Assembly (NCBI GenBank): GCA_947630755.1
Contig: CANRIU010000013.1
Coordinates: forward strand, 1 to 45,263
Length of the DNA stretch: 45,263 nucleotides
From: an uncultured Oscillospiraceae bacterium
GTDB taxonomy: Bacteria; Bacillota; Clostridia; Oscillospirales; Oscillospiraceae
Direction: 5' to 3'
This document shows positions 439 through 29,900 of this stretch, one piece after another. The position numbers and the translations under genes were made by a program. The stretch's first letter is position 1. Each line of letters starts with the position of its first letter. The notes under the pieces were generated by a model that saw only the letters and a list, made by a program, of their open reading frames with translations, was not told where the DNA came from and did no database searches.

Positions 439-3132
439 ATGAATTTAAGCAGAAAATGGCTAAGAGAGTTCGTTCCCGTGGATGTCTCCGACCGGGAATT
501 TGCCGAGGCGATGACACTCTCCGGCTCCAAGGTGGAGACCACCGAGGACCTGGGCGCCCAGATCTCAAACGTCGTGGTGGGCAGAATAGTCGGGATGGAG
601 AAGCACCCAAACTCCGACCACATGTGGGTCTGCCAGCTCGACGTTGGGAAGGACGAGCCCGTCCAGATAGTTACAGGCGCCTGGAACGTCCACGAGGGCG
701 ACATGGTGCCCGTGGCTCTCCACAGATCCACCCTCCCCGGCGGGAAGAAAATCGAAAAGGGCAACCTCAGAGGCGTTAAGTCCAACGGTATGCTCTGCTC
801 CTTAAAGGAGCTGGGCCTTGACGAGCGCGACTTCCCCTACGCCCGCGTCACCGCCGCCGCCCTTTTGAATGACTACCACCCCATAGACCCGGAAAAGCCC
901 TCCATCCCCGCCGACATAAAGCCTGGCGACAAAATTTACGGCCCCGTAGTGGCGGCGGAGGTATGGGAGTGCATGCCCCTTAGCGACGGAAGCTACCACA
1001 CCTGCATGAACATTGGGGAGAAGGGCACAGTCTGCCCCGATATTCGCTGTGACAACGTCCATGTGGGCGACATGGTGGCCTATAATGAAAAGACGGACAC
1101 CGTCTGCACCCTCTCCGACCTCCGCGCCGAGCAGCGGGAGTTCCCCCACTGCATCGAGGACGGCATCTTCGTCCTCCGGGAGGAGGGGATAAAGCCCGGC
1201 GACGACATAAAGCCCGTCATCAACGCCGACGACAGCGTTGTGGAGTTTGAGATAACCCCCAACCGCCCGGACTGCCTCTCCGTCATCGGCCTTGCCCGGG
1301 AGGCTGCCGCCACATTTGATAAACCCCTGACCCTCCACACCCCCTGCGTTCATGGCGGCGGTCCCGGCGTTCTCACGGACCTTCTCCGGGTGGAGACCCC
1401 GGACCCCGACCTGTGCCCCCGCTACACCGCCCGCATGGTCCGGAATGTGAAGATAGCCCCCTCCCCCAAGTGGATGCGGGAGCGCCTTCGCGCCATGGGC
1501 GTCCGCCCAATTAACAACATAGTCGACATCACCAACTATGTGATGCTGGAGTACGGACAGCCCATGCACGCCTTCGACTACCGCTATGTCAAGGGCGGCA
1601 GGATAATCGTCCGCCGCGCGAGGGCGGGGGAGGAGCTCACCACCCTGGACGGGAACGTGAGGAAGCTCAACGAAAACCACCTCGTCATCGCCGACGGCGA
1701 CAGAGCGGTGGGCCTTGCCGGGATCATGGGCGGCCTCAACTCCGAGATAGTCCCCGACACCGTGGACGTGGTATTTGAGTCGGCAAATTTCGACGGCACC
1801 TGCATCCGCAAGGGCGCACTGGCCCTTGGTATGCGCACCGAGGCCAGCGCGAAATTTGAAAAGGGCCTGGACATCGAGAACACCCTCCCCGCCGTGAACC
1901 GCGCCTGCGAGCTTGTGGAGCTGCTGGGCGCAGGAGAGGTGCTGGACGGCGTCATCGACATCAAAAACCGCGTCCCCGAGCCCTACCACATGGAGCTGGA
2001 GCCGGAGAAGATAAACGCCCTTCTGGGTACTGACGTCCCCGAGGAGGAGATGGTCCGCATCCTCAGAAAGCTTGACTTTGAGGTGGAGGGCCGCCATGTT
2101 ACCGTTCCCTCCTGGCGGGGCGACGTGCGCCGCATGGCGGACCTTGCCGAGGAGGTGGCCCGTTTCCACGGCTACAACAACATCCCCGTGACGCTCATGC
2201 GGGGCGAGACCACCCGCGGCGGCTACAACCGTGAGCAGAAGCTGGAAAACAGGCTGGGCGAGCTCGCCCGGGACTGCGGCTATGACGAGATAATCACCTA
2301 CTCCTTCATCTCCCCCACGGCCTACGACAAAATATGCTGGCCCGCCGACGATCCCCGCCGCCAGTCCTTCAGGATTTTGAACCCCCTGGGGGAGGACACC
2401 TCCATCATGCGCACCACGGCCCTGCCCTCCATGCTGGAGATTTTGACCCGGAATTTCAACTTCCGCAATAAGGACGTGAAGCTCTACGAGCTGGGCCGCG
2501 TCTACCTGCCCGGCGGGGATGAGGGCCTCGCGGTGGAAAACCGGGTCCTCACCCTGGGCGCCTACGGCGAGGGGATGGACTTCTACGCCCTCAAGGGCGC
2601 GGTGGAGGCAATCCTTCGCGGCATCCGCGCGGAGGATGTGGAGTTTGAGCCCGTCCGGGATAACCCCTCCTACCACCCGGGCCGCTGCGCCAGGGTGAGC
2701 GCCGGGAGCCGCCTCATCGGCGTTCTCGGTCAGATCCACCCCAATGTTGCCAAAAATTACGGCGTGGACGCGGATCTCTACTGCGCCGAGCTCGACTTCG
2801 GCCGGCTCCTCCTGAGCATGGGCCCCGACCCGGTGTACAGGCCGCTGCCCCGCTACCCCAGCGTCACCCGGGACCTGGCCCTCATCGCCCCCCACGAGGT
2901 CACCGTTGGCCAGATCGAGGCGTGCATAAAAGAGAGCGGCGGCAAATACCTCAAATCCGTCTCCCTCTTTGACATCTACGAGGGCCCCGGAATCCCGGAG
3001 GGCAGCCGCTCCACGGCATACTCACTGGAGCTTCGCTCCGACGAGGGCACCCTCACCGACGCCCACGCGGACGAGACTCTGAGGGACATATTAAAAGCCC
3101 TCGGCGAGAAGCTTGGCGCTGTGCTGAGATGA
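439..3132 (+). CDS. pheT: Phenylalanine--tRNA ligase beta subunit, enlarged form
   Basis: This is the beta subunit of PheRS, responsible for tRNA-Phe binding and editing. At 897 residues it is about 100 longer than the roughly 800 usual for bacterial PheT. Domains in order: N-terminal B1 start (1-40), OB-fold tRNA-binding domain (about 41-125, GRIVGMEKHPNSDHMWVCQLDVG), an extra segment (about 135-238), the rest of B1 (VEFEITPNRPDCLS, about 268), B3/B4 editing module (about 300-470), B5, the catalytic-like core, and a C-terminal ferredoxin-fold anticodon-binding domain (about 805-897, RYPSVTRDLALIAP). The extra segment resembles a second OB domain: VVAAEVWECMPLSDGSYHTC followed by NVHVGDMVAY mirrors NVHEGDMVPV in the first. 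The start ATG has a strong AAGGAGGTG site. A hairpin terminator follows the stop. Confidence 0.97.
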   Translation: MNLSRKWLREFVPVDVSDREFAEAMTLSGSKVETTEDLGAQISNVVVGRIVGMEKHPNSDHMWVCQLDVGKDEPVQIVTGAWNVHEGDMVPVALHRSTLPGGKKIEKGNLRGVKSNGMLCSLKELGLDERDFPYARVTAAALLNDYHPIDPEKPSIPADIKPGDKIYGPVVAAEVWECMPLSDGSYHTCMNIGEKGTVCPDIRCDNVHVGDMVAYNEKTDTVCTLSDLRAEQREFPHCIEDGIFVLREEGIKPGDDIKPVINADDSVVEFEITPNRPDCLSVIGLAREAAATFDKPLTLHTPCVHGGGPGVLTDLLRVETPDPDLCPRYTARMVRNVKIAPSPKWMRERLRAMGVRPINNIVDITNYVMLEYGQPMHAFDYRYVKGGRIIVRRARAGEELTTLDGNVRKLNENHLVIADGDRAVGLAGIMGGLNSEIVPDTVDVVFESANFDGTCIRKGALALGMRTEASAKFEKGLDIENTLPAVNRACELVELLGAGEVLDGVIDIKNRVPEPYHMELEPEKINALLGTDVPEEEMVRILRKLDFEVEGRHVTVPSWRGDVRRMADLAEEVARFHGYNNIPVTLMRGETTRGGYNREQKLENRLGELARDCGYDEIITYSFISPTAYDKICWPADDPRRQSFRILNPLGEDTSIMRTTALPSMLEILTRNFNFRNKDVKLYELGRVYLPGGDEGLAVENRVLTLGAYGEGMDFYALKGAVEAILRGIRAEDVEFEPVRDNPSYHPGRCARVSAGSRLIGVLGQIHPNVAKNYGVDADLYCAELDFGRLLLSMGPDPVYRPLPRYPSVTRDLALIAPHEVTVGQIEACIKESGGKYLKSVSLFDIYEGPGIPEGSRSTAYSLELRSDEGTLTDAHADETLRDILKALGEKLGAVLR

Positions 3133-3141
3133 AAATCCGCC

Positions 3142-3176
3142 CCGGCCCCGGACGGAAATACCCCGTCTGGGGCCGG
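3142..3176 (+). terminator. GC-rich hairpin after pheT
   Basis: Nine bases after the pheT stop an imperfect stem pairs CCGGCCCCGGACGG with CCGTCTGGGGCCGG across a short loop. It is followed by AAATTGGGTCCATTTG rather than a clean T-run, so termination may be inefficient or Rho-assisted. The next 270 bases (3180-3449) are AT-rich with many A/T tracts, and I see no gene in them. Confidence 0.5.
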
Positions 3177-3449
3177 AAATTGGGTCCATTTGTCTAATTT
3201 TAAAAATTTCTCCAAAAAATTTGAAAAAAACTCTTGCAAAATCGTCAGGAATGAGTAAAATTGATGTCAGAGACTTTGCGCGGAGCGGGATAATTTGACA
3301 AATCTCAAATTTTTTTGATAAATTTTGTAATGCCACAGGATAAATTTTCCGCAAAATTTCATCAAAAAAACCTCAAACCCCTTGGGGCGCAAGGACTTTG
3401 GGGCTTGTCCCCGCCTGTAACCTTTTTGTAACCAATCTCAGTTTAAATG

Positions 3450-3478
3450 TTGACATTGCTCTAACTATGTGATAGAAT
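3450..3478 (+). promoter_or_regulatory. Strong sigma-A promoter for the left SLH gene
   Basis: TTGACA (3450-3455) and TAGAAT (3473-3478) are separated by exactly 17 bases, a near-consensus housekeeping promoter. Transcription would start near 3485, about 405 nt before the SLH start codon. The promoter lies outside the 479-bp inverted repeat, so it stays put if the segment between the repeats inverts. Whichever SLH tail is joined at the left repeat would be driven by it. Confidence 0.75.
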
Positions 3479-3484
3479 GTCTAC

Positions 3485-3891
3485 AAATCCGTGGTGGAAC
3501 TGCGTTTTGACCCCCTCCTCCATGGATGTATGGCAAAAAACCTTACTTACAACAGGGTCGACCACATCCGCGCCGGGCGACCGGAGCGGTGAAGTCTTCA
3601 TTATGTAAGTGTACGGCGGGGGGTCTTGGAACCGCCCAACCTCGATTCCTCGCCGTACTCCTCCTTTAAAAAATTTTCCACGAATAAAACGCGGATTTGG
3701 GGGAACAAAGGTTTCGAAGCTTAAGTCATAAGGGCGTAATGAGCAGCCGGGGGGCCGCGAAAAACCGAACACCCGGCGCGACCATGATGTGAATAGCCGA
3801 CCGGCAGGTCCGGCGTTTACATAACAAAAAGTCCGGTTCATGTAACGGGCGAAAAATTAATCAATAATTTTTATTAAGGAGGAAACACTAC
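3485..3891 (+). promoter_or_regulatory. Long structured 5' leader of the left SLH gene
   Basis: About 400 nt lie between the predicted transcription start and the SLH start codon, with no convincing ORF. Visible hairpins include GTACGGCG (about 3611) pairing with CGCCGTAC (about 3649), and TTACAT (about 3818) pairing with ATGTAA (about 3839) near the 3' end. Long stable leaders are known for S-layer mRNAs in other Gram-positives, where they lengthen mRNA half-life; that role here is inference. The last 26 bases, including the ribosome-binding site AAGGAGG, belong to the inverted repeat shared with the second SLH gene. The rest is unique to this side. Confidence 0.5.
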
Positions 3892-4344
3892 ATGAAGACT
3901 CTGAAAAAGACCCTGTGCTTGGTCTTGGCAGTGGTCATGGCGGTGGGCGTGCTCGTCATTCCGGCGAATGCTGTCGACTTCGATGATCTCACTGACAAGG
4001 ACGAAATCAAGCACGCCGAGGCGGTTATGGTGCTCAATGGAATGGGCATCCTGACCGGCAAGGACGACGGTTCTTTCGACCCGACCGGGACACTCTCCCG
4101 CAACCAGGCCGCTAAGATCGTTGCCTATGCTCACGGTGGCGCAGCTCTGGCGGAGAGCTATGGCAAGACCGAGACCTTGTTCAACGACGTTCCTGCAAAC
4201 GGCTATTACACCGGGTTCATCAACTATGTTGCCATGAACGGCCTCGTAGGCGGCGACGGCGCTGGCAATTTCATGCCCACCAAGTCCCTTACCGGCTATC
4301 AGCTCGGCAAGATGATGCTTCTTGCTGCCGGCATCGGCGTCGAG
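3866..4344 (+). repeat. Left copy of a 479-bp perfect inverted repeat
   Basis: Read on the plus strand, 3866-4344 is identical base for base to the reverse complement of 10043-10521 (paired positions sum to 14387). It spans AATTTTTATTAAGGAGG, the start codon, the signal peptide and codons up to 151, ending at GTCGAG. Beyond 4344 the genes diverge to patchy similarity; upstream of 3866 there is none. Perfect identity over 479 bp beside strongly diverged tails implies recent recombination or gene conversion between the two ends. Confidence 0.95.
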
Positions 4345-6390
4345 TCCGACTACTCCGGAAGCGGCTGGACCATGAAGGTCAACAACGCTCTCGTGAGGAA
4401 TGGCCTCCTCGAGGATCTCACTGTTGACCTCTCCAAGGCCATCACCCGTGATGATGCCGCTCAGCTCCTCTGGAATGTTATGAACTATTCCGAGAAGGGC
4501 GAGAGCTCCGTTTTCGGCGTTTATGCGAGCGCTGAAAGAGACGCTGATCAGATTACCACTACAAGCGATCCTATGGAAGTCCTCAGCTACAAGGCCGCCG
4601 GATATGTCATTCGTGTCATCACCACCAAGGCTGACTCCCTCGCGGGCAGGAACTATGGCTTCTCTACCGCTACCGGATCTGATGCGTGGGGACGTTCCAC
4701 CGTTCAGTACACCAACGGAAGGACTGACAACAGGAAGGTTATCTATGCTTCCTTTGATGCTACCCCCAGCAAGACTTATCTTGTCGCCACCAACCTCGAC
4801 ACCATCCTCAAGGACCTTGGCTATAAGCTTAACGGCAAGGTTTCCTTGACTATCTACAAGAACGGCGTTGAGATTACCGATTACACTGAGTATGGTGCTG
4901 CTTCTGACAAGACCTTTACCCGCACTTCTGACACTGCTAACAGCAAGAGGCTTGGCGGAACAGGCACTCTCGTTGAGGTATTCAAGTACTCCGGAGATGC
5001 TGTCCGCGTTGACCTGATTGAGACTCATATCTACAAGCTCACCGCTGACGACATCACTGCTCATAAGGCTGCTACCGCTGATACCAACGAGGTTCCTGCC
5101 TCCATCACCATTAACGGCTGCTCCCTTGAGACTGACAAGTTCAAGAAGAACGACATTGTTGTCTACACTGCCAACGAGGACACCAAGGCCATTGTTGACA
5201 TCGCGATTGCCGGCACTGTTTCCGGTAAGGTTACTGCTACTGGCAGCGGCTACATCCGTATTGATGGTACTCAGACCTATGTTTCTCAGAGCGCCAAGGC
5301 TCTTGCCGACGGCAAGTTCACCGCTGATGTCGTAGTTGGATCTACTGCTGGCTTCAAGTATGATGCCACCACCAATTATGTCTTCTATCTTGACTTCTAC
5401 AAGAACGTTATCGGTGCCGAGCCTGGCAAGGTTCAGGAGATTCAGACCGACTATGTTTACGTTCAGGCGTTTGAGGCTTCCGCTGGCGAGAAGGGCGGCG
5501 GCGACCTCATCACCACCGCTGGCACTGCGGCAGTTGCCAAGGCCCGTGTCATCCACCTCGACGGAACCGTTCAGGTTGTTGACATTGGTATAGTCAGAAA
5601 GCCCACTGGCGATTACGAGTATGCCGATTACAGCGGCGCCGCTTCCGGCAAGGCTGTTACTGGCAGCTCCGACTACACTGGTGGAAAGTTCTATGAGTAT
5701 GTGACCCTTGCTGACGGCAGCTATGTCCTTGTCGCTGACGCTACTGGTGATACCGAGAACGTCAACCTTGTTAAGGGCACCGCTAAGATCGCCGACGGTC
5801 TCTTCGCCAACTCCAGCACAGTTGCTACTGTCATGGTTTATAAGGATGGCAAGACCACTGTGACCAAGATTACTGGCTACAACTCCTTCCCGAGCTCCAA
5901 CGGAGTCCTCAACGGCGCTCTCGTATTTGCCAATGCCGCTGGTACTGTTTCCGAGATTTATGCAGTAACCTCTGCCCCCGTTGGCTCCACCGAGGCTCCC
6001 GTACATTATGCCATCTACGCCGGCGCTGGTGAGACCACTAACGTTGCTCACATCCAGTTCTATGTTGACGGCGCTCTTGTTGAGTACGAGTATAAGGGAA
6101 CAACCGCTCTTGTACCTGGTACTGTTTATGACATCACCGTTTCCGGCAACGAGGTCACGAAGGCTGATCCGATCACAACTGGCAAGACTGAGAACGTCTC
6201 CGTTGTCTCTGTTGAGGCTGAGTACTTCGTTGGTAAGAACGCCACCTCTACTGAGGCTTACACCTTCGCTTCTAATTGCCTGATCGTCGATGCGAACGCG
6301 AGCTATGCCAAGGCTGCCCTCGAGGTTGATGACGTTGTCACCATCTTCGTGAAGGATGGCAAGGTTGAGCTTGTTATCATCACCAAGTAA
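3892..6390 (+). CDS. SLH-domain surface (S-layer-like) protein A, expressed orientation
   Basis: This 832-residue secreted protein has a signal peptide (KKTLCLVLAVVMAVGVLV, cleavage likely after ANA27). Two clear SLH motifs follow (about 30-80 and 97-142) and a weaker third (about 158-200, NNALVRNGLLEDL to ITRDDAAQLLWNVM). SLH domains bind pyruvylated secondary cell-wall polymers, so the protein should sit on the cell surface. Residues from about 210 on are a long Thr/Gly/Ala-rich region of beta-type character, probably the exposed part. Residues 1-151 are identical to protein B (7937-10495), while the tails are only distant homologues (both keep a VVxYTANED patch). T-ending codons are common, suggesting very high expression. 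The promoter at 3450 and terminator at 6422 make this a complete monocistronic unit. I infer an S-layer or major surface protein; the exact role is unproven. Confidence 0.9.
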   Translation: MKTLKKTLCLVLAVVMAVGVLVIPANAVDFDDLTDKDEIKHAEAVMVLNGMGILTGKDDGSFDPTGTLSRNQAAKIVAYAHGGAALAESYGKTETLFNDVPANGYYTGFINYVAMNGLVGGDGAGNFMPTKSLTGYQLGKMMLLAAGIGVESDYSGSGWTMKVNNALVRNGLLEDLTVDLSKAITRDDAAQLLWNVMNYSEKGESSVFGVYASAERDADQITTTSDPMEVLSYKAAGYVIRVITTKADSLAGRNYGFSTATGSDAWGRSTVQYTNGRTDNRKVIYASFDATPSKTYLVATNLDTILKDLGYKLNGKVSLTIYKNGVEITDYTEYGAASDKTFTRTSDTANSKRLGGTGTLVEVFKYSGDAVRVDLIETHIYKLTADDITAHKAATADTNEVPASITINGCSLETDKFKKNDIVVYTANEDTKAIVDIAIAGTVSGKVTATGSGYIRIDGTQTYVSQSAKALADGKFTADVVVGSTAGFKYDATTNYVFYLDFYKNVIGAEPGKVQEIQTDYVYVQAFEASAGEKGGGDLITTAGTAAVAKARVIHLDGTVQVVDIGIVRKPTGDYEYADYSGAASGKAVTGSSDYTGGKFYEYVTLADGSYVLVADATGDTENVNLVKGTAKIADGLFANSSTVATVMVYKDGKTTVTKITGYNSFPSSNGVLNGALVFANAAGTVSEIYAVTSAPVGSTEAPVHYAIYAGAGETTNVAHIQFYVDGALVEYEYKGTTALVPGTVYDITVSGNEVTKADPITTGKTENVSVVSVEAEYFVGKNATSTEAYTFASNCLIVDANASYAKAALEVDDVVTIFVKDGKVELVIITK

Positions 6391-6421
6391 TTAGAATAGT
6401 TAACCAAAAGCACAGACCTTT

Positions 6422-6455
6422 CTCCCCCCGGGCTTTGCCCGGGGGGAGATTTTTT
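6422..6455 (+). terminator. Intrinsic terminator of SLH gene A
   Basis: CTCCCCCCGGGC and GCCCGGGGGGAG form a perfect 12-bp stem with a TTT loop, followed by A and six T's. The same 12-bp arms, with loop ATC, occur after SLH gene B at 7884-7910, so the two ends of the locus are mirror images. Confidence 0.93.
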
Positions 6456-6471
6456 CATACCCTTCTCGGTT

Positions 6472-6525
6472 TTATGTTAACCTGCCTCAAAAAATACCGC
6501 TTTTTTGTGTCTTGTAAGTGTATTG
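6472..6525 (+). repeat. Left member of an inverted site pair flanking the recombinase gene
   Basis: Blocks: TTATGTTAACCTGCC (6472-6486), 20 variable bases, GTGTCTTG (6507-6514), TAA, GTGTATTG (6518-6525). The same blocks occur in reverse orientation at 7758-7812 with a 21-base variable segment. The two octamers differ by one base and are spaced 11 bp, about one helical turn, as in recombinase or regulator binding sites. Function is inferred from position: the pair brackets the tyrosine recombinase gene exactly. Confidence 0.65.
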
Positions 6526-6557
6526 TCCGGCGGAGTGGAAGCTTCTTACATGGAAAA

Positions 6558-7637
6558 TCAGTAGCTCAGCTTGTCGACCTCCGCCAGAAGTTCCGGCAGG
6601 TCCTTGTGGGTGTAGCGGTCCGTCACGTCCCGCTGGCTGTGCCCGACGATGAACATCATCGCGGCCCGGCGCACCCCCGCGGTGTCCAGGGCCGAGACGA
6701 AGGTATGCCGGGTGTCGTGCGGGGTGTGGCGCATCCCCAGCGCCGGAAGGACCCGGTCAAACCAGCCGTACTTGTACTGGGAGTATGTAAGCGCCTTGCC
6801 CTCCGGCCCGGTAAAGAGCTGCTCCTGCCCGGCGCGGTCCAGAATCCGCGCCATCACCGGGAGAATGTCCGTGTGCAGTGGCACCCGGCGGCGTGCGGCC
6901 TTTGTCTTAGTACCCCGCAGGTCGATGAACCGCTCCTTCAGATTCACATCCCCCCGCCGGAGGTCCAGAAGCTCTCCCACCCGCAGCCCGGTGTACAGGA
7001 GCAGCAGCACCGACTCCAGCATGACGCCGCCCCGGAAGCGCTCCGGCTCCCCGGGGACGGGTCCGCCCTCCCGCCAGAGCCGCCAGAGGGCGCGGATCTC
7101 CTCCCGGGTGAAGACCCGGCGGCTGGAGTCCGCCTCCGGCGCCGTGAGCTCAACGTACTGCGACCAGTCGCGCTCGATGACACCCCGGCTCATGGCCCAG
7201 CGATAGAGCATGTGCATCAGCGACCGGACCTTGGACTGATACCCCCGTGACTTGCCGTCCATCCGGCGGATCACCTCCTGAAGCTCCCAGGTGTTGAGCT
7301 CACGCAGCGGGCGGAACCAAATCCTGCTGCAAAAGGCCATGGCGCTCTCCGTCACCCGGCGGGTGGAGGGGTACTTCTCAAAATACTCCGGGCTCCACCG
7401 CTCGTAAACCTCCCGGAAGGTCATCTGCCGGGCCTCCGGGTCGTAGGGCTTCCGGTTGTACTCCGCCAGCGCCAGCATCGCCTCCCCCCGGGTCTCGAAA
7501 TACCCCAGTGTCGCGTACTGCTGGAGCGCCGGACCGCTGGGGCGCTCCTCCCACCCCACTGTGACCCGCGCCCGATAGGGCCTGCGCCTGTTCCCCGGGA
7601 GCCTCGACACTCCGCCGTAGCCGTTTGGATTTCTCAT
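6558..7637 (-). CDS. Tyrosine-type site-specific recombinase (integrase family)
   Basis: This 359-residue tyrosine recombinase has all catalytic residues visible: Arg219 (TGLRVGELL), a Lys in TKTK (244/246), His307 and Arg310 (HDTRHTF), His333 (GHSQ) and nucleophile Tyr342 (RYTH). The N-terminus MRNPNGYGG with RRRPYRAR is a basic arm-binding-like region. It is followed by an SAM-like core-binding domain (about 72-165) and the catalytic domain (about 175-359). The ATG has an AGGAGG site and a near-consensus promoter 36 bases upstream. There are no phage structural or excisionase genes around it. It sits alone between two convergent SLH genes that share a 479-bp inverted repeat, so a DNA-inversion role is the simplest reading. 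A solitary integrase remnant is the alternative. Confidence 0.95.
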   Translation of the reverse strand: MRNPNGYGGVSRLPGNRRRPYRARVTVGWEERPSGPALQQYATLGYFETRGEAMLALAEYNRKPYDPEARQMTFREVYERWSPEYFEKYPSTRRVTESAMAFCSRIWFRPLRELNTWELQEVIRRMDGKSRGYQSKVRSLMHMLYRWAMSRGVIERDWSQYVELTAPEADSSRRVFTREEIRALWRLWREGGPVPGEPERFRGGVMLESVLLLLYTGLRVGELLDLRRGDVNLKERFIDLRGTKTKAARRRVPLHTDILPVMARILDRAGQEQLFTGPEGKALTYSQYKYGWFDRVLPALGMRHTPHDTRHTFVSALDTAGVRRAAMMFIVGHSQRDVTDRYTHKDLPELLAEVDKLSY

Positions 7638-7672
7638 TTTATACCTCCTGAAAATTTTTTGATATGTGGGAG

Positions 7673-7701
7673 ATTATGACCTATCCGGCACGGTTTTTCA
7701 A
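7673..7701 (-). promoter_or_regulatory. Promoter of the recombinase gene
   Basis: On the minus strand TTGAAA (7696-7701) and CATAAT (7673-7678) are 17 bases apart, each one mismatch from the sigma-A consensus. Transcription would begin near 7666 and give a leader of about 30 nt ending in AGGAGGTATAAAATG. The recombinase therefore need not depend on read-through from SLH gene B, whose terminator lies just upstream. Confidence 0.65.
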
Positions 7702-7757
7702 TCACAATCGCGATTTCAGGACAAATTTCCAAGGAATTTCTTCCCACCCGTGAGGAG

Positions 7758-7812
7758 CAATACACGCGCAAGACACATATTATTTCCGCGATATTCCGGC
7801 AGGTTGACATAA
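7758..7812 (-). repeat. Right member of the inverted site pair flanking the recombinase gene
   Basis: Read on the minus strand: TTATGTCAACCTGCC (7798-7812), 21 variable bases, GTGTCTTG (7769-7776), CGC, GTGTATTG (7758-7765). It matches the left member (6472-6525) at 14/15, 8/8 and 8/8 positions in inverted orientation. It lies between the recombinase promoter and the terminator of SLH gene B. Confidence 0.65.
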
Positions 7813-7877
7813 CATCTCTCAAGTAAAGCGGAGGCTGATATGTTAATGAAAATCGAGTTGAGAGGGGGTAAAAGGAC

Positions 7878-7910
7878 CAAAAACTCCCCCCGGGCATCGC
7901 CCGGGGGGAG
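7878..7910 (-). terminator. Intrinsic terminator of SLH gene B
   Basis: On the minus strand CTCCCCCCGGGC and GCCCGGGGGGAG pair around a three-base loop and are followed by five T's. The arms are identical to those of the terminator after SLH gene A, in mirror orientation. Confidence 0.9.
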
Positions 7911-7936
7911 AAAAACTTTTTTTAATTCAGCCCAAA

Positions 7937-10495
7937 TCAGCCAACGTTGACAAGAGCGAACTCGATCCTGCCGGAAGCATTCTTGAAGACGGTGAGGACA
8001 TCGTCAGCCTCAAGGTCAGCAACCTTAAGAGCAGCGTAGTCGTTAGCCGCATCGTAAATCGCGCAATTGTCAGCGAAGAAGGTAACAACGTCGTCAGCGC
8101 CAACAACATACTCAGCCTGAACGAGCTTAACGGTAATGTTGGAGCCAATGAGCTCGGTAGCGGTGAGCTGTCCGTCGCTCTCGCTGATGTCATAGACACT
8201 GTTAGCCTTCAGAGTGACCTCGGTGGTAGCCTTATCGCCAACGCCATAGACCTTGCCATCCTTGTCGGTGACGTTCTTGACCTCGCCGCCAACGAAGAAG
8301 CTGTAAGCGGTGACATCGGAAATCTCACCGGGCCCAATGTAGATAGCATAAGTTGTGCTGGTGACAACAGCGTCAGGAGCCTTAACAACAGTGATCTTGG
8401 TGATGATGCCATTGCTGTCAACCTCAACAAGCGCATCAGTGTAAGTTGCGTTGGAGAAGTTGGTGTAGCCAGTGGAAGTGGTCACGTTGACAGCACCAGT
8501 CTGAGCATTGTAGGTAAGGATGTTCAGGACAGTGGAGCTGTTGGCAACATAAGTCTTGCCATCAACGATCTGGACCTTCTGGGTGTCGCTTATAACGACC
8601 TTCTCAAGAGAGGCAACTCTATCGACAAGAACGATGCTGCCGTTCTCAAGAGTAGTGAAGGTGTAATAGCTGTTTCCAACAAAGCTGTTGGTAGCTTCAA
8701 CAGGCGTGGAGCTGGCAGCTCCGGTCTGGTCAGCATAGAAGTAGCCAGTCTTGGCAGCGTTCTGGACAACGGCGAGGTCAACGATCTTCCTTGTGCCCTG
8801 AGCCAGATCGATAACCATAGCCTGAGCCCTTGCGGCGTTGCCGGGGATCTCCTCAAAGAGGTTACCGCCAGTGGTGTTACCGCCAGCAGCCTGAGACTTG
8901 ACCTGAAGGACATAGACGTAATCCTTCTTGACTTCCTGAGTCTGGCCCTTGACAGCCATGATTATGTTGCCATAATCGTCGAAGTAATAGGTGAACTCGG
9001 GCTTGGCGCTGTCAAACTTGAAGCCTTCGGTAGTGCCGAGGGTGGCGCCGGAGTGAGCGGAGAGGTACTTGACCTCATTGTTGATGCGGAGGTAGCCATT
9101 GCCTTGAGCAGTAACAACACCGACAGTAGCGGGGGCAACAACCATGTTGACGATCTCGTCCTCGTTCGCGGTGTAAAGGACAACGTCGCCCTTCTTGAAC
9201 GCGTCAGTAACGATGACCTTGCCGTCAACGGTAACATAAGCGGGAGATGCCTCAGTGGTCGCGGTGGCAGCCTTGGCCTTAACGATGTTCTCGTCAGCAA
9301 GCTTAACAGCATAGGTGTCAATCTTTATAAGGGTGACAGTCTTGTTGTCCTTATAAGCCTCGATGAGAACGCCGTAGCCGCCGATGTCGTTGCTGAGCTT
9401 GGAACCATTGACAACATAACCAGTGGTACCGAGGAGAGCAGCGCGGGACATCTTCTCATAAGTGGTGGGAGTGCCGTTGTCGATAAGCTTTACAGTGACC
9501 TCATCGGTGGTCTTGAAGCCAAGATCAGAGAGGATGGTGCTGTACTTGGTGGCAGCTGTATAGCTCTTCTGATAGGAAGGAGCGAGGGAAGCATAAACAA
9601 CGTTGGTGTTGTTCTTGTTGTACCAAATCTTATACTCACGACCGAAATCGTCGGCATCGGTGCCGGACTTAAGGCCATAGTTGACATCAGCAAGAGAGCC
9701 AACGTTGGTGGTAGCGGTAGTCATACGGCTGCCTTCGTTGCTGGCCTTCATGAGGAGAGCAGTTATCTCGTCGGTGCCGCTCCAGATGAACTCGTCCTGA
9801 CCCTGGGTGTACATCTTGTCGCCAACGGTCTTATCGGCATTGACAGGATAAGTATCGTTGTAAACAACATACTCAACGCTGGTGCCGTTGGGAGCATACT
9901 GCATCACGTTGAAAAGGAGCTGAGCGGCATCGTCACGGGTGATGGCCTTGGAGAGGTCAATGTCCGCAAGGTTTGCAAGGAGATTCGCCTTAACAAGGGC
10001 GTTGTTGACCTTCATGGTCCAGCCGGTTCCGGAGTAGTCAGCCTCGACGCCGATGCCGGCAGCAAGAAGCATCATCTTGCCGAGCTGATAGCCGGTAAGG
10101 GACTTGGTGGGCATGAAATTGCCAGCGCCGTCGCCGCCTACGAGGCCGTTCATGGCAACATAGTTGATGAACCCGGTGTAATAGCCGTTTGCAGGAACGT
10201 CGTTGAACAAGGTCTCGGTCTTGCCATAGCTCTCCGCCAGAGCTGCGCCACCGTGAGCATAGGCAACGATCTTAGCGGCCTGGTTGCGGGAGAGTGTCCC
10301 GGTCGGGTCGAAAGAACCGTCGTCCTTGCCGGTCAGGATGCCCATTCCATTGAGCACCATAACCGCCTCGGCGTGCTTGATTTCGTCCTTGTCAGTGAGA
10401 TCATCGAAGTCGACAGCATTCGCCGGAATGACGAGCACGCCCACCGCCATGACCACTGCCAAGACCAAGCACAGGGTCTTTTTCAGAGTCTTCAT
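7937..10495 (-). CDS. SLH-domain surface (S-layer-like) protein B, probably the silent or weak partner
   Basis: This 852-residue protein has residues 1-151 identical to protein A: signal peptide ending ANA27 and SLH motifs at about 30-80 and 97-142. A diverged third SLH (about 158-202, DLSKAITRDDAAQLLFNVM) follows. The tail has the same architecture as A but low identity (shared patches such as FKKGDVVLYTANED and KKDYVYV against QTDYVYV), ending at EFALVNVG. It is transcribed toward gene A and ends in the mirror-image terminator. Upstream of the shared repeat I find only a -10-like TATAAT (10635-10640) with no good -35. As oriented it should be expressed weakly or not at all. If the interval between the repeats inverted, this tail would be joined to the promoter and leader at 3450-3891. 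Codon use is the same T-rich style as gene A. Confidence 0.9.
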   Translation of the reverse strand: MKTLKKTLCLVLAVVMAVGVLVIPANAVDFDDLTDKDEIKHAEAVMVLNGMGILTGKDDGSFDPTGTLSRNQAAKIVAYAHGGAALAESYGKTETLFNDVPANGYYTGFINYVAMNGLVGGDGAGNFMPTKSLTGYQLGKMMLLAAGIGVEADYSGTGWTMKVNNALVKANLLANLADIDLSKAITRDDAAQLLFNVMQYAPNGTSVEYVVYNDTYPVNADKTVGDKMYTQGQDEFIWSGTDEITALLMKASNEGSRMTTATTNVGSLADVNYGLKSGTDADDFGREYKIWYNKNNTNVVYASLAPSYQKSYTAATKYSTILSDLGFKTTDEVTVKLIDNGTPTTYEKMSRAALLGTTGYVVNGSKLSNDIGGYGVLIEAYKDNKTVTLIKIDTYAVKLADENIVKAKAATATTEASPAYVTVDGKVIVTDAFKKGDVVLYTANEDEIVNMVVAPATVGVVTAQGNGYLRINNEVKYLSAHSGATLGTTEGFKFDSAKPEFTYYFDDYGNIIMAVKGQTQEVKKDYVYVLQVKSQAAGGNTTGGNLFEEIPGNAARAQAMVIDLAQGTRKIVDLAVVQNAAKTGYFYADQTGAASSTPVEATNSFVGNSYYTFTTLENGSIVLVDRVASLEKVVISDTQKVQIVDGKTYVANSSTVLNILTYNAQTGAVNVTTSTGYTNFSNATYTDALVEVDSNGIITKITVVKAPDAVVTSTTYAIYIGPGEISDVTAYSFFVGGEVKNVTDKDGKVYGVGDKATTEVTLKANSVYDISESDGQLTATELIGSNITVKLVQAEYVVGADDVVTFFADNCAIYDAANDYAALKVADLEADDVLTVFKNASGRIEFALVNVG

Positions 10496-10521
10496 GTAGT
10501 GTTTCCTCCTTAATAAAAATT
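10043..10521 (-). repeat. Right copy of the 479-bp perfect inverted repeat
   Basis: Identical to the reverse complement of 3866-4344. It includes the ribosome-binding site, start codon and first 151 codons of SLH gene B. Identity stops abruptly at 10521 upstream and at 10043 downstream. Inversion between the copies would exchange the tails of the two SLH genes and flip the recombinase gene, leaving both outer promoter regions in place. Confidence 0.95.
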
Positions 10522-10619
10522 GGGAGAAAATTACTTACACAATAGCTGTGGAATTATTTGGGGAAATGTGGCAAAAGCGCGGTTTCACGAACAATTTCGA
10601 CATTTTGGGTCCGGAGGGT

Positions 10620-10640
10620 GTGTCTTGCGGGAGTATTATA
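10620..10640 (-). promoter_or_regulatory. Weak promoter-like -10 for SLH gene B, overlapping a half-site
   Basis: TATAAT on the minus strand (10635-10640) stands about 115 bases before the common repeat, but no recognisable -35 lies 16-18 bases upstream (an A-run is there). On the plus strand the same stretch reads GTGTCTTG, CGG, GAGTATTA, which resembles the octamer pair at the recombinase-flanking sites (8/8 and 6/8). It may be a recombinase-related site, a weak promoter, or chance. The remaining 10496-10768 region is AT-rich without genes. A GCCCCGGG/CCCGGGGC pairing (10703-10710 with 10751-10758) encloses a small hairpin. Confidence 0.3.
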
Positions 10641-10768
10641 CAGTATTTTCCACTGCATTTTTTGAGAAAAAGGGTATTTTTGTGAGGGTAAAAAGGTGAT
10701 TTGCCCCGGGCTTTAAGGAAAGGTTTTTGTACAAAGATACAAGCTTTTTTCCCGGGGCGCTTTCATGC

Positions 10769-10797
10769 TTGACGTGGTGCGGGGGAGACAATATAAT
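10769..10797 (+). promoter_or_regulatory. Promoter of the purine operon
   Basis: TTGACG (10769-10774) and TATAAT (10792-10797) with 17-base spacing form a strong sigma-A promoter. The start would be near 10804, about 77 nt before purE. I do not recognise a purine riboswitch or a clear PurR-type operator in the short leader. Confidence 0.8.
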
Positions 10798-10880
10798 AAA
10801 CATGGAATAGAGTTTATCCGCTGGACGGAGGTTTTCTGAGGGATCCGGAAGGGCCCTGTTTGTATTTTGGAGGGGGTAAC

Positions 10881-11375
10881 ATGAAAAAAGTCGGAATTCT
10901 GATGGGGAGCGCCAGCGACCTGCCCGTGGTGGAGAAGGCCGTGGCGGCGCTTCGCGAGTACGGCGTGGAGTCGGAGACTCACGTCTATTCCGCCCACCGC
11001 ACGCCGGAGGAGGCGCGGGATTTCGCGCTGAAGGCGCGGGAGAACGGGTTCGGAGTTATCATTGCCGCCGCGGGCATGGCGGCGCACCTGGCCGGGGCGG
11101 TGGCGGCGAACACAACGCTGCCGGTGATAGGCATACCCTGCAGGTCCACGGTGCTGGACGGCATGGACGCGCTGCTGTCCACGGTCATGATGCCGCCGGG
11201 AATACCCGTGGCGACAGTTGCCATCAACGGGGCGCAGAACGCGGCGCTGCTGGCGATAGAGATCCTCGCCGTGACCGACGATGAGCTCGCGTCGAAGCTC
11301 GACGCCGCCCGGAAGGCGGGCGCGGAGAAGGTACTGAGGTCCGACGCCGAGGTAAACGAGAAGCTTTACGGCTGA
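10881..11375 (+). CDS. purE: N5-carboxyaminoimidazole ribonucleotide mutase (PurE)
   Basis: PurE converts N5-CAIR to CAIR in de novo purine synthesis. The 164-residue protein starts [15 protein letters not shown]. It keeps the phosphate-binding GSASDLP loop, the HRTPE motif (about residues 39-43) and the AGMAAHL and GIPCRS patches of class I PurE. The ATG at 10881 is chosen because GGAGGGGG precedes it at good spacing; an in-frame start 21 bases earlier has no ribosome-binding site. No purK is seen in the window, and class I PurE normally needs PurK, so it should lie elsewhere. This is the first gene of the operon, and purF follows after 48 bases. Confidence 0.96.
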
Positions 11376-11423: not shown

Positions 11424-12848
11424 ATGGGCGGATTTTTTGGAGTTACATCTAAGCGCAACGCGGTTTTTGACGTGTTTTTCGGGACGGACTACCACTCGCA
11501 CCTGGGCACCCGCCGGGGCGGAATGGCGGCCTGGAGCCCGGAGCACGGACTTCAGCGGGAGATACACAATATTGAGAACACGCCATTCCGGACGAAGTTC
11601 GAGGACGACGTGCTGGAGCTCAAGGGCGCAAGCTGCATCGGCTGCATATCCGACACGGACCCCCAGCCGATACTCATACGCTCCCACCTTGGCGTGTACG
11701 CCGTGAGCATGATAGGCATAATCCGGAACATGGAGGAGCTGACAAACAGGTTCCTCGACGCGACCTACGGGCACTTTGAGGCCATGGGCGGGGGAAGGGT
11801 CAACCAGTGCGAGCTGGTGGCGGCCCTGATAAACCAGCAGAGGACCTTTGAGGACGGCATACGCTTCGCCCAGGAGAAGATAGAGGGCACGGTGTCGCTG
11901 CTCATCCTCACCGACAAGGGGGAGATCATCGCCGCCAGGGACAAGATGGGCAGGCTGCCCATCATAATCGGCAAAAACGAGGACGGCTACTGCGTGAGCT
12001 TTGAGTCCTTCGCCTTTGAGAAGCTGGGCTACTCCTACGTCCGGGACATCGGCCCCGGGGAGATAGTCCGCGTCTCCGCCGACGGCTGGGAGACGATCGG
12101 CGAGCCGGGCGACAGGATGAAGATATGCACCTTCCTGTGGACCTACTACGGCTACCCCAACTCCCGCTACGAGGGGATGAACGTTGAGGTCAGCCGGGGC
12201 AGGAACGGGCGGCTCATGGCAAAGTACGACCGGGAGCACGACGGCATCCCCGACGTGGACTACGTCTGCGGCGTGCCCGACTCCGGCACGGCCCACGCCA
12301 TCGGCTACGCCAACGAAAGCCACATCGACTTCGCCCGGCCCTTTATCAAATACACGCCCACCTGGCCCCGCTCCTTCATGCCCCACAAGCAGGAGATACG
12401 CAATCAGGTGGCGAAGATGAAGCTCATCCCGGTCCACGAGCTCATCGACGGCAAGAAGCTCCTCTTTGTTGACGACTCCATCGTCCGGGGCACGCAGCTT
12501 GCGGGGACGGTGGACTTCCTCAGAAACAACGGCGCCAGGGAGCTCCATATGCGCTCCGCCTGCCCGCCCATCATGTACGGGTGCAAGTATTTAAACTTCT
12601 CCCGCTCCACCTCGGAGATGGAGCTCATCGCCCGCCGGACCATGAAGGCGCTGGAGGGTGACGAGGGCTTTGACCACGCCGGCGAGTACGTTGACGGCAC
12701 CACCTCAAGGGGCAAGGCCATGCGTGAGCACATATGCAGGACCCTCCGGTTCGACTCCCTGGAGTACCAGACCCTGGACGGGACGCTCTCCGCCATAGGA
12801 ATAGACAAGTGCAAGCTGTGCACTTACTGCTGGAACGGCGAGGAATAA
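11424..12848 (+). CDS. purF: Amidophosphoribosyltransferase (PurF) lacking the N-terminal catalytic Cys
   Basis: PurF makes phosphoribosylamine from PRPP and ammonia, normally released from glutamine by an N-terminal Cys. This 474-residue protein has a good PRPP-binding motif (LLFVDDSIVRGTQ, about 347-359). It also has the Cys residues expected for a Bacillus-type Fe4S4 cluster: Cys282 (CGVPDSG), Cys380 or Cys387, and C-terminal Cys463, Cys466 and Cys469. However, the N-terminus reads MGGFFGV where family members have Cys-Gly, and the usual HRGQEG region reads TRRGGMA. No upstream in-frame codons offer a Cys. The start is fixed by AAGGAG seven bases upstream. It is the only PurF in the operon. 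Likely readings are an ammonia-dependent enzyme, or a Cys-less paralogue with the true glutamine-dependent copy elsewhere. Confidence 0.9.
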   Translation: MGGFFGVTSKRNAVFDVFFGTDYHSHLGTRRGGMAAWSPEHGLQREIHNIENTPFRTKFEDDVLELKGASCIGCISDTDPQPILIRSHLGVYAVSMIGIIRNMEELTNRFLDATYGHFEAMGGGRVNQCELVAALINQQRTFEDGIRFAQEKIEGTVSLLILTDKGEIIAARDKMGRLPIIIGKNEDGYCVSFESFAFEKLGYSYVRDIGPGEIVRVSADGWETIGEPGDRMKICTFLWTYYGYPNSRYEGMNVEVSRGRNGRLMAKYDREHDGIPDVDYVCGVPDSGTAHAIGYANESHIDFARPFIKYTPTWPRSFMPHKQEIRNQVAKMKLIPVHELIDGKKLLFVDDSIVRGTQLAGTVDFLRNNGARELHMRSACPPIMYGCKYLNFSRSTSEMELIARRTMKALEGDEGFDHAGEYVDGTTSRGKAMREHICRTLRFDSLEYQTLDGTLSAIGIDKCKLCTYCWNGEE

Positions 12849-26839: not shown

Positions 26840-26868
26840 ATTATAACCCGCCCCGGGCCGATTGTCAA
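26840..26868 (-). promoter_or_regulatory. Consensus promoter of the ylxM-ffh-rpsP-khpA operon
   Basis: On the minus strand a perfect TTGACA (26863-26868) and a perfect TATAAT (26840-26845) stand 17 bases apart. The short leader contains a small hairpin (CTGTAATG / CATTACAG, 26811-26834) just before the ribosome-binding site, which might modulate initiation. Confidence 0.9.
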
Positions 26869-26936
26869 GGAATATTTTGCGTATTCGGAGGAAAAATAAT
26901 CCCGTTTATATTAATTTCGGGAATCGGAGGACGAAA

Positions 26937-29900
26937 ATGACCGAAAAGGACATGGGAATATATATGGAGGACGAGAGGCTTGCGAATTTCGCCAGGAACA
27001 CCGCCGCCACGGTTGACGCCTCCGGCAGGGTGCCCGGGCGGCGCGCCGCCCGGGAGGTCCGCCAGTGTCTGCGGCGGCTGGAGCTGCGTATGAAAAGCTC
27101 CAGTGGCACGGGGGCCGCGGCGGAGTGGTTCTCCGACAACTGGTACATCGCCCAGCGCGAGGGGAAGAGCGCCGCGTCGGAGCTGGAGGCCTCCGGGCGT
27201 CTCCCCGGCGCGCCGGGGGGCAGGGCTGCGGTGATGGAGGCGGCGGGGGCCCTCGTCCGGGCGGGCAGGGGCGAGGTGACGGGGGAGCGGGTGAAGCTCT
27301 TTCTCACCCAGCTCCAGAAGGTCCGTCCCCTAACCGAGGGGGAGCTGGCGGCCTTCATCCCGGCGCTCCGGGCGGAGCTGGTGTCCTTCCTTGACGAGCT
27401 GTACCCCAGGTCCCTGGACAAAATAAGGGATGACGGGGAGCTTGCCGGGACGACGGGGCGGGTCTTCACCTCTCTGAGGCTCCTGTCCAGCGTGGACTTC
27501 TCGCCGGTGCTGGAGGAGGTGAACCTGATGGAGGCGGCCCTGCGCCGGGACCCGGCGGGGATATACCCGCTGATGGACGAGGAGACCCGATCTTACTACC
27601 GGGAGCGGCTTTCAAAGCTCGCCGCGGCCTCCGGCATGACCGGGGCCGCGGCGGCGGAGCAGTGCCTGAAGCTCGCCGAGGCGGGGCCGGAGCGCCATGT
27701 GGGCTACTACATCCTTGAAAAGCCGCTGGGCGGGGAGAGAAGGCCCCGCCGGGGCGGGCTCTATATGGGCATGACGGTGCTTGCGACGCTGTTTTTCACG
27801 CTGCTTATCGGCATGGGCACGGGCAGCGTCCTGGCGGCGGCGCTGGCGCTGGTGCCGATTTCCGAGCTTGTGAAGAACGTGACGGACTTTGCGCTGCTGC
27901 GCATCGTGCGCCCCAGGCGCCTGCCGAGGATGGAGCTGGAGGGCGGTATCCCACGGGTCGGCAGGACCGTCTGCGTTATCTCCGCCCTGCTGACGGGCGA
28001 GGAGGACGGCAGGCGGTACGCGAAGCTCATGGAGGAGTACAGGCTCCTTAATCGGGACGCCGGGGAGGAGCTGCTCTTCGGCATACTCGCGGACCTTCCG
28101 GAGCACGGCGAGGCCGCCGCGCGGGAGGACCGGAGGATACTTGAGAGCGCCGGGGACGCCGTGGAGGAGCTTAACCGCAGGTACGGCGGGGGCTTCTACC
28201 TCTTTGCCCGCCCCCGGGAGCTGAACGCGGCTGACGGCGTCTGGATGGGCCGGGAGCGAAAGCGCGGGGCCATAGAGGACCTGGTGCGGCTCATCTCCGG
28301 CGACAGGACGTCCCTCCGGGTGCTGGCGGGGGAGGAGGGGCGCGTCAGGGGCTGCGCCTACATCCTGACTCTCGACGCGGACACCCGCCTCACCGCGGGC
28401 TCCGCCAGGGAGCTGGTGGGGGCGGCGCTCCACCCGCTGAACGTCCCGGTGGTGGATGAAAAATCCGGCCGGGTGGTGTCCGGCTACGGGGTGTTTGAGC
28501 CCCGGGTCGCGGTGGACCTCGCCGCCGCCGGGCGCAGCGACTTTGCGAAAATCTACGCCGGGGAGGGGGGCATCGACCCCTACAACAGCGTGACGTCGGA
28601 CCTGTATCAGGACATCTTCGCCGAGGGGACATTCATGGGCAAGGGCCTCATCAACGTGCCCGTATACAGGCGCCTTCTTGACGGGCGCTTCCCGGACAAC
28701 GCGGTGCTCTCTCACGACATACTGGAGGGGGCGTATCTTCGCTGCGCCTTCGTCTCCGACACGGAGCTCACCGACGGCTGGCCCTTCAAGGTCACCTCTT
28801 ATTTCGCCCGTCAGGAGCGGTGGATACGGGGCGACTGGCAGAACCTTCGCTGGTGCACCCGCCGCGTCAGGACCCGGGACGGGGCGCTGGTTAAAAACCC
28901 CATAAGCTCCCTGAACCGCTGGAAGATCGCGGACAACCTGCGCCGCAGCCTTCTGCCGCCCCTGGCCCTCGCCGGAATTTTGGCGGGGGCGGTGCTCTCC
29001 GGACCGGGGCTGGGGCTGTGCGCGGCGCTGGGGGTGCTGGCACTGGCAAGCCCCCTGGTGCTCACCTGCGCGGAGCTCCTCGTCCGCCACGACGGCTCCG
29101 GCAGGGCGAGATACCAGTCCGGTGTCATATCCGGGGCCGCTGGGGTGATGCTCCGCACGGCTGTGAGGCTCCTTCTCCTCCCGGCGGAGGCGTGGGTGTC
29201 CGTCCGGGCGGCGGCTACGGCCCTCTGGCGGATGCTCGTGACGAAAAAGCGCCTTCTCGCCTGGGTGACATCCTCGGAGGCGGAGCGCCGCCACGGCAAC
29301 ACCCTGGCCGTAAATTACCGGCGGCTCCTCGCCTGCCCCATCCTTGGGGCGCTGGCGCTGATACCCGTGAGGACCCCGCTTCTCGCCGCGGCGGGGATAC
29401 TGTGGCTCTTCACCCCGGCATACGCCTGGGCGCTCTCCCGCCAGATACGCCCCCACAGCGCCGTGACCCGGTCCGACAGGGCGTACCTCATGGAGCGGGC
29501 GGGAGAGATATGGCGGTTTTTCAGGGAAAATTTGACCGGGGAGGACAACTACCTCCCCCCGGACAACGTCCAGACGGAGCCGGACCTGGGCCGCGCCCAC
29601 CGCACGAGCCCCACGAATATCGGCCTTGCGCTGCTCTCCTGCGCCGCCGCGGCGGACCTGGGGCTAATATCGGAGTCCGAGGCGGCGGAGCTTGCGGAGC
29701 GGACCATCGGCACGGTGGAGAAGCTCACAAAGTGGAACGGACATCTTCTCAACTGGTACGACACCAGGACCCTCCAGCCCATGGAGCCCAGGTACGTCTC
29801 CACCGTGGACAGCGGGAACCTCATGGGGTGCCTTCTCGCCGCTGAGCAGTGGCTTCGGGGCATCGGCAGGGAGGAGCTCGCCTCAAGGTGCGAGGCCCTC

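Follow-up and report, generated by a model that had tools for sequence, protein, structure and literature searches.

The stretch of DNA analysed here (the window) is 45,263 nucleotides long and is contig C13 (CANRIU010000013.1) of the 2.19-Mb draft genome, in 98 contigs, of an uncultured Oscillospiraceae bacterium. It carries two convergent genes for S-layer homology (SLH) proteins, cassettes A and B, with a tyrosine recombinase gene between them. The comparisons reported below make it highly probable that this locus belongs to a multi-cassette expression-site switch for SLH (S-layer type) proteins, which would act at gene starts. In the proposed mechanism, one chromosomal site by pheT would provide a strong promoter and a leader of about 400 nt, and several SLH cassettes, each with a near-identical start block of about 65 bp (the core), would be joined to the leader by recombination in that block. 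Because the two blocks of the window are inverted around the central recombinase, one crossover would invert a 6.6-kb segment and B would replace A. If the partner were a dispersed cassette, a longer piece of chromosome would be exchanged. The simplest account places the crossover in the core and makes the resident tyrosine recombinase its presumed agent. Genomes are designated by G-numbers (G000 is the window's own genome, the others are relatives), contigs by C and recombinase loci by L. The main elements of the locus are:

3450-3478, + strand: TTGACA-17-TAGAAT, promoter of the expression site, with TG preceding the -10 element (11 of 12 match)
3479-3891, + strand: long 5' leader kept throughout the genus; 30 of 34 genomes have it at a single place
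3892-6390, + strand: SLH cassette A, 832 amino acids, behind the promoter in the present assembly
7937-10495, - strand: SLH cassette B, 852 amino acids, without a recognisable promoter in the present orientation
3866-4344, + strand: left arm of a perfect 479-bp inverted repeat (sequence comparison)
10043-10521, - strand: right arm of the same repeat (sequence comparison)
3875-3940, + strand: core of cassette A, from the ribosome-binding site to about codon 16, proposed recombination region (column conservation)
10447-10512, - strand: core of cassette B, proposed partner site (column conservation and core search)
6558-7637, - strand: tyrosine recombinase between A and B (PF00589)

Cassettes A and B are identical from 26 bases upstream of the ATG to coding base 453, which gives the perfect 479-bp inverted repeat. 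An earlier note, made from the letters of the window alone, had described convergent SLH genes with this repeat at 3866-4344 and 10043-10521, and the description is correct. The repeat extends to 529 bp at 99%, the 151 common codons contain no synonymous difference, and the perfect repeat cannot be chance. Over coding bases 501-800, the ungapped match between A and B is just 11-19 per 50 bases. The tails do differ after the repeat, as the note had it, but they are homologous: since similarity continues past the repeat (amino-acid identity 48% overall and 36% across the tails), they are diverged paralogues and not unrelated sequences. SLH domains were found in both A and B by Pfam search and, together with a signal-peptide-like start (judged by eye), mark both products as SLH proteins. 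The window's own genome contains 74 SLH domain matches over many contigs, few of them in core-bearing genes, so that the SLH repertoire is large even apart from the switch.

A strong promoter and a long leader are present on the left side only, as the earlier note stated; the scan that detected the A-side promoter found no promoter-like site upstream of B on the minus strand (10496-10870). Among 61 core copies with at least 500 nt of upstream sequence, TTGACA-17/18-TARAAT occurs with at most one mismatch in 22/22 leaders, as against 1/39 other cassette flanks. In 30 of the 34 genus genomes, the leader of A has a single matching place (among the best 19 candidates scored, with 1-8 weak candidates more in several genomes), and a match is absent in 3 of the 34 genomes searched. 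The place is split over two contig ends in G016 and G025, and G021 retains only the last 23 bases. Beside the leader, the mapped relatives have pheT/pheS, except for one clade with an Mbeg1-like gene. A single promoter or expression site per genome, as in switches of the vpma, vsa and slp type (see below), is thereby seen in the sequence, as distinct from measured activity. The last 150 or so bases of the leader keep hairpins in 17 relatives (GTCCG..CGGAC or ..CGGGC, and GCCCG..CGGGC in G026), and the alifold energy of the leader lies 10 standard deviations below that of 60 column shuffles. Possibly the leader RNA stabilises or regulates the message. Rfam gave no match at the gathering score within 3133-10860.

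All 26 cassette starts visible at recombinase loci share the block of about 65 bp from the ribosome-binding site to about codon 16. Columns were counted over 65 copies, from which G006, G008, G010 and G012 were omitted, as they were from the analysis of the candidate dyad. Columns -17 to +26 are invariant or have one exception among the 62-65 covering copies, save the wobble positions +11 and +14. From +27 to +48, at least 61 of 63 copies agree in most columns, with variation at +27, +38 and +41. Past codon 16, mixed codons are used even for conserved amino acids. A 44-bp core was found in 27 of the 34 genus genomes, in 1-6 copies each, and the reversed control pattern had 0 matches in the 34 genomes. 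Two or more core copies are present in all 18 genomes with the recombinase, versus 4 of the 16 others (Fisher p=3e-6, species taken as independent). Outside the genus, the core was found in one of 294 sampled genomes of the family, G237. This is also the sole out-of-genus genome of the sample with a recombinase more than 70% identical, on a short contig that could be misbinned. The contig (G237:C121, locus L039) is 6.4 kb long and carries the recombinase and a core-bearing cassette in another genus, by transfer or misbinning.

Synonymous change was compared at eight codons within codons 3-12 in 69 copies, that is, the set of 71 core copies (which excludes copies found in G007, G011 and G024) less 6 that were too short, plus 4 from G003, G004, G005 and G007. 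Codons 5, 10 and 13 were omitted in every group, 5 and 10 being variable. Changes amount to 8/429 in 54 copies from recombinase genomes, 4/80 in 10 copies from multi-copy genomes in which no recombinase was found, and 20/37 in 5 single-copy genomes without a recombinase. The 16 bases before the ATG are unchanged in 69/69 copies. The earlier note had placed the inversion at the 479-bp repeats. This was not borne out, and column conservation makes the block of about 65 bp at the start codon the likely recombination site; the longer 479-bp identity is more likely due to homogenisation. A 5' region shared across the alternative genes is present, and it would contain the recombination site. A textbook dyad was considered as that site and is not claimed, as the candidate is a 6-bp dyad equalled in 51/1000 shuffles:

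3907-3926, + strand: weak candidate dyad AAGACC-N8-GGTCTT in core A, suggestive only
10461-10480, - strand: the same weak candidate dyad in core B, suggestive only

The product of the gene at 6558-7637 matches PF00589 (Pfam, E=1.4e-19). Residues R219, K244, H307, R310, H333 and Y342, which we take to be the catalytic R-K-H-R-H-Y set of tyrosine recombinases, are invariant across 19 orthologues, in line with the intact catalytic set reported in the earlier note. Assignment to the chromosome-dimer recombinases XerC and XerD was rejected, with 55.9 and 54.9 bits against NCBIfam equivalog cut-offs of 335.15 and 329.6. Orthologues with 63-74% identity occur in 18 of the 34 genus genomes (own included). 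The next homologues within the genus are about 30% identical, and matches of this kind (G010 and the second match of G019) were excluded from the count; the 19 orthologous loci are the 18 of the genus and that of G237. In 15 of the 19, the recombinase is flanked by two convergent SLH-type cassettes. Of the 30 cassette starts in these 15 loci, 26 lie on the contig, and all 26 open with the same peptide and core. The remaining four loci are those of G237 and G021, each cut on one side by a contig end, G020 with one cassette, and G029 with none visible. A single tblastn query found an SLH-like gene at 0 of 47 loci of distant recombinase relatives (L051-L087 and L222-L231, the latter covered with about 1.5 kb on each side and several of the others also short), from which the SLH association appears specific to the orthologue clade. 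It is quite likely that the resident tyrosine recombinase carries out the switch. One distant relative, L078, has a flanking inverted repeat of its own. In several relatives (L020, L021, L024), an inner second inverted repeat of 104-250 bp surrounds the recombinase, and it could allow the recombinase segment to invert by itself.

Leader and recombinase unit lie together on one contig in eight genomes. The recombinase is parallel to the leader-borne gene in five of them (G015, G018, G028, G031 and G033) and antiparallel in three (G000, G013 and G026), with the same leader-side flank, so that the comparison of related genomes proposed in the earlier note did find both orientations. At least three changes of orientation are required on the recombinase tree, also when well-supported branches alone are used. 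The close relatives G031 and G013 share their leader-side flank and differ in orientation. On the far side, six of the eight have an M20 gene as flank, the window has purE, and in G013 the contig ends. The flanks of the window and the terminators between the cassettes, whose mirror-image arrangement at 6421-6449 (+) and 7910-7884 (-) had also been noted earlier and was confirmed, are:

439-3132, + strand: pheT, constant flank of the expression site (family match; comparison with relatives)
10860-11375, + strand: purE, far flank (family match; comparison with relatives)
6421-6449, + strand: terminator of A, mirror image of the B terminator
7884-7910, - strand: terminator of B, mirror image of the A terminator

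Gene order around the cassettes is shuffled at the core. Upstream of the 11 cassettes that adjoin purE lie kbl (3), the leader (3), metY (2), a PBP-type gene (1), another flank (1) and a contig end (1). The flank gene pairs stay intact: pheT-pheS in 15/15 (2 undecidable), M20-YihY in 18/18, purE-purF in 11/11 and kbl-SDR in 10/10, counted per stretch (54 decidable; 5 undecidable, at the edge of the stretch). As junctions vary at the core while these pairs are kept, the breaks in gene order lie at the core rather than at the neighbouring junctions. The genes kbl, SDR, YihY, metY, PBP and MATE were named by reading the sequences; pheT, purE, M20 and Mbeg1-like were identified by searches. G033 has leader-unit-M20 and kbl-cassette-purE, and its relative G020 has leader-cassette-purE and kbl-cassette-recombinase-M20. 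This arrangement is as expected of one reciprocal exchange, although the cassettes are too diverged for proof.

The system extends beyond A and B. In the window's own genome, a third SLH cassette on C35, beside an M20 peptidase gene, runs for 868 codons from the first base of its contig and begins in the core at the contig end; a third flank, on the kbl side, ends in the core at the start of C18. Up to 6 core copies per genome, spread over several contigs, occur in the genus. The self-contained two-gene flip envisaged in the earlier note is therefore not upheld. What stands of its inversion switch under one promoter are the two orientations among relatives and the distribution of the promoter, and the switch is not limited to two genes. 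In other species, the SLH part too differs between partner cassettes, so that the whole secreted protein can be exchanged. Alternative genes behind the promoter, as proposed in the note, are found, but the wall anchor which it took to be constant is not always so. The unlinked cassettes would be silent.

Two near relatives, G015 and G025, have the same expression site (96% nucleotide identity over 4 kb) with different cassettes after the leader, C7_4260 in G015 and the purE cassette C11_51 in G025. C11_51 is also present in G015, at 94.5% over 4,981 bp from base -27 and without the leader, and a relative (83%) of the G015 leader cassette occurs in G025, likewise without the leader. This difference is supported mainly by the assembly of G015, which runs without a break from the leader into the other cassette. 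The G015 copy of C11_51 has only 28 bases before its start, and its flank is distinguished from the leader by the last base alone. In G025, leader and cassette are linked through 50 bases of the leader and contig ends that overlap by 77 bases.

Exact 77-base overlaps recur between contig ends in G014, G022 and G025, and 77 would be the k-mer of the assembler. In G025, the 77-mer from -50 to +26 forms both the end of the leader contig and the beginning of the contig with the purE cassette. As its leader-specific bases make it unique sequence, no break would be expected there. The 77-mer falls one base short of +27, a position occupied by C in the purE cassette and by T in cassette C36_25. The mirror pattern is seen in a second 77-mer that was left unmerged (-24 to +52) and that joins another flank to C36_25: its first base follows -25, where that flank and the leader differ. 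On the simplest reading, one short edge from the leader to C36_25 would explain both breaks, and the leader would be joined to two cassettes in the G025 population; alternatively, the second neighbour of C36_25 could be another flank with the same base at -25. A double junction in G025 would place the crossover between -25 and +27. The evidence from contig ends is confined to G025, because its broken 77-mer holds leader-specific bases and ends elsewhere are ambiguous. Both DNA arrangements exist between species, and within one population by the contig ends of G025 alone.

A number of observations weigh against a switch that acts at the core through the resident recombinase. In G016 and G026 the cassettes are mosaic, the first 200 or so residues (the SLH part) going with the leader and the tail with the recombinase, suggesting at least one exchange further downstream. 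A clear picture from tail comparison was obtained for this pair only; orthology of tails by recombinase side (P or Q) in all species was tried and given up, because the tails evolve and change place too quickly to allow such a test in general. The 453 identical coding bases of A and B exceed the need of a crossover near codon 9, for which reason RecA-type recombination or gene conversion probably also acts. Such processes would account for further exchange deeper in the gene, as in the 479-bp identity and the mosaic. Beside the recombinase, a single cassette is present in G020, and in G029 the side that can be seen lacks one. No recombinase was found in G014 and G030, which are 97-99% complete and have 3 cores. 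The candidate dyad is weak, and position +27 in its spacer differs between the G025 partner cassettes. The non-leader flank G022 C103 matches the promoter perfectly, and 6/39 flanks match it with two mismatches. The codon contrast is supportive but not clean, because the single-copy genomes are more distant and the consensus was taken from recombinase genomes. The assemblies are drafts, those with named records being metagenome-assembled genomes. As a contig end lies no more than 100 nt from 30 of the 71 core copies, most of the breaks may come from the repeats as such.

Part of this evidence would suit a switching of cassettes by general homologous recombination (RecA) at the repeated gene starts, with the recombinase as a domesticated integrase in another role. 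Identity often reaches well past the core (479 bp in the window and 987 bp at 88% in L050), and both the mosaic SLH parts and tails and the several cores of G014 and G030 fit such an explanation. It is nevertheless rather unlikely: the block is conserved at synonymous sites genus-wide with an edge near codon 16, it drifts in single-copy genomes without the recombinase, the recombinase stands between two cassettes in 15/19 loci, and the sole out-of-genus genome with a core, among the 294 sampled, also has the orthologue. That no switching takes place, the cassettes being duplicates of long standing with starts that gene conversion keeps similar amid ordinary slow rearrangement, appears improbable. 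Gene conversion would account for the 479-bp identity, and the shuffled junctions do fall in repeats, where breakpoints of genome rearrangements often lie; such a history sits poorly with both orientations beside a constant leader-side flank, a leader found at one place in each genome, the difference between near relatives in the cassette after the promoter and the double junctions suggested by the G025 contig ends. Misjoining of repeats in metagenome bins is the least probable explanation and can be set very low. The bins are drafts with many cores at contig ends, and the orientation of the window itself may be arbitrary, because its contig crosses a 479-bp perfect repeat. Against an artefact of assembly or binning stand the same layout in 15 loci of different species and the flank gene pairs intact in 54/54 decidable cases.

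Two further observations concern the rest of the window. The gene after purE (11424-12845) has a purF family match of 175.6 bits, below the cut-off of 350, and codes for a diverged PurF-like protein. An open frame of 2,414 codons lies at 26862-34106.

The slp locus of Lactobacillus acidophilus has two genes, and its proteins are unrelated and not known to have SLH domains. We know of no dedicated recombinase inside its inverting segment; the present system differs in its resident recombinase and in having up to 6 cores per genome. In Campylobacter fetus, a Gram-negative bacterium whose sap proteins are not known to have an SLH anchor, a segment with the one promoter inverts among clustered cassettes. 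The likeness lies in S-layer genes with a conserved N-terminus and a family of silent homologues. CwpV of Clostridioides difficile, with RecV, is under ON/OFF control of one gene and is not known to involve cassette exchange, and the vsa products of Mycoplasma pulmonis are lipoproteins.

In L. acidophilus, the active and silent S-layer genes slpA and slpB are interchanged by chromosomal slp inversion (Boot et al. 1996, cited in PMC7858073), and S-layer-type genes, inversion and a gut organism are common to both cases (PMC7858073). The earlier note knew of no system with exactly the layout of the window; slp is a close precedent which it left unnamed. CwpV is, like the present proteins, a phase-variable cell-wall protein of a Firmicute (PMC2784873). 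Mycoplasma agalactiae vpma/Xer1 and M. bovis vsp have a single active promoter, a tyrosine recombinase gene in the locus, and 5' untranslated and signal-peptide regions that are conserved, and inversions link silent open reading frames to the promoter (PMC2268961). One promoter, a conserved gene start, a recombinase in the locus and alternative genes joined by recombination are thus shared. According to the same source, these systems encode lipoproteins, with sites proposed upstream of the start codon, at -1 to -72, and genes in one locus (PMC2268961); here the block enters the coding region, the cassettes lie over several contigs and the products are SLH proteins. In M. pulmonis vsa/HvsR, promoter, ribosome-binding site and constant gene start are joined to alternative 3' parts, with 714 constant coding nucleotides (PMC2268961) as compared with about 16 codons here and about 150 in the window. 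Bacteroides thetaiotaomicron BT1927 is a phase-variable S-layer system via DNA inversion, linked to phage resistance, in which the promoter inverts and genes are not exchanged (PMC12548429), whereas here cassettes would be exchanged. In the literature searched, which consisted of titles and the starts of abstracts and left most subscription papers outside, no SLH cassette switch is described for Oscillospiraceae. The present system differs from vpma/vsp, vsa and slp in its SLH proteins, a block inside the coding start, dispersed cassettes and a recombinase between two of them.

The switch would serve surface variation against phages or host factors. Short-read assemblies may break at such loci or pick one arrangement arbitrarily, which calls for caution in reading them. 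Evenly balanced is the case for a wider interpretation, a genus-wide programmed chromosome rearrangement in which the site of the integrase-like resident recombinase would be the start-codon and signal-peptide region of the dispersed SLH family. Each change of coat would then be a crossover of the one expression site with a cassette anywhere on the chromosome, reshaping gene order between species, as in the reciprocal arrangements of G020 and G033. If the switch is real, gut Oscillospiraceae would gain coat switching comparable to that of mycoplasmas and lactobacilli, made distinctive by a site within the signal-peptide codons, dispersed cassettes and one recombinase kept over much of the genus. 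The switch model predicts which part of the coat changes, and it would tie genome rearrangement to surface variation.

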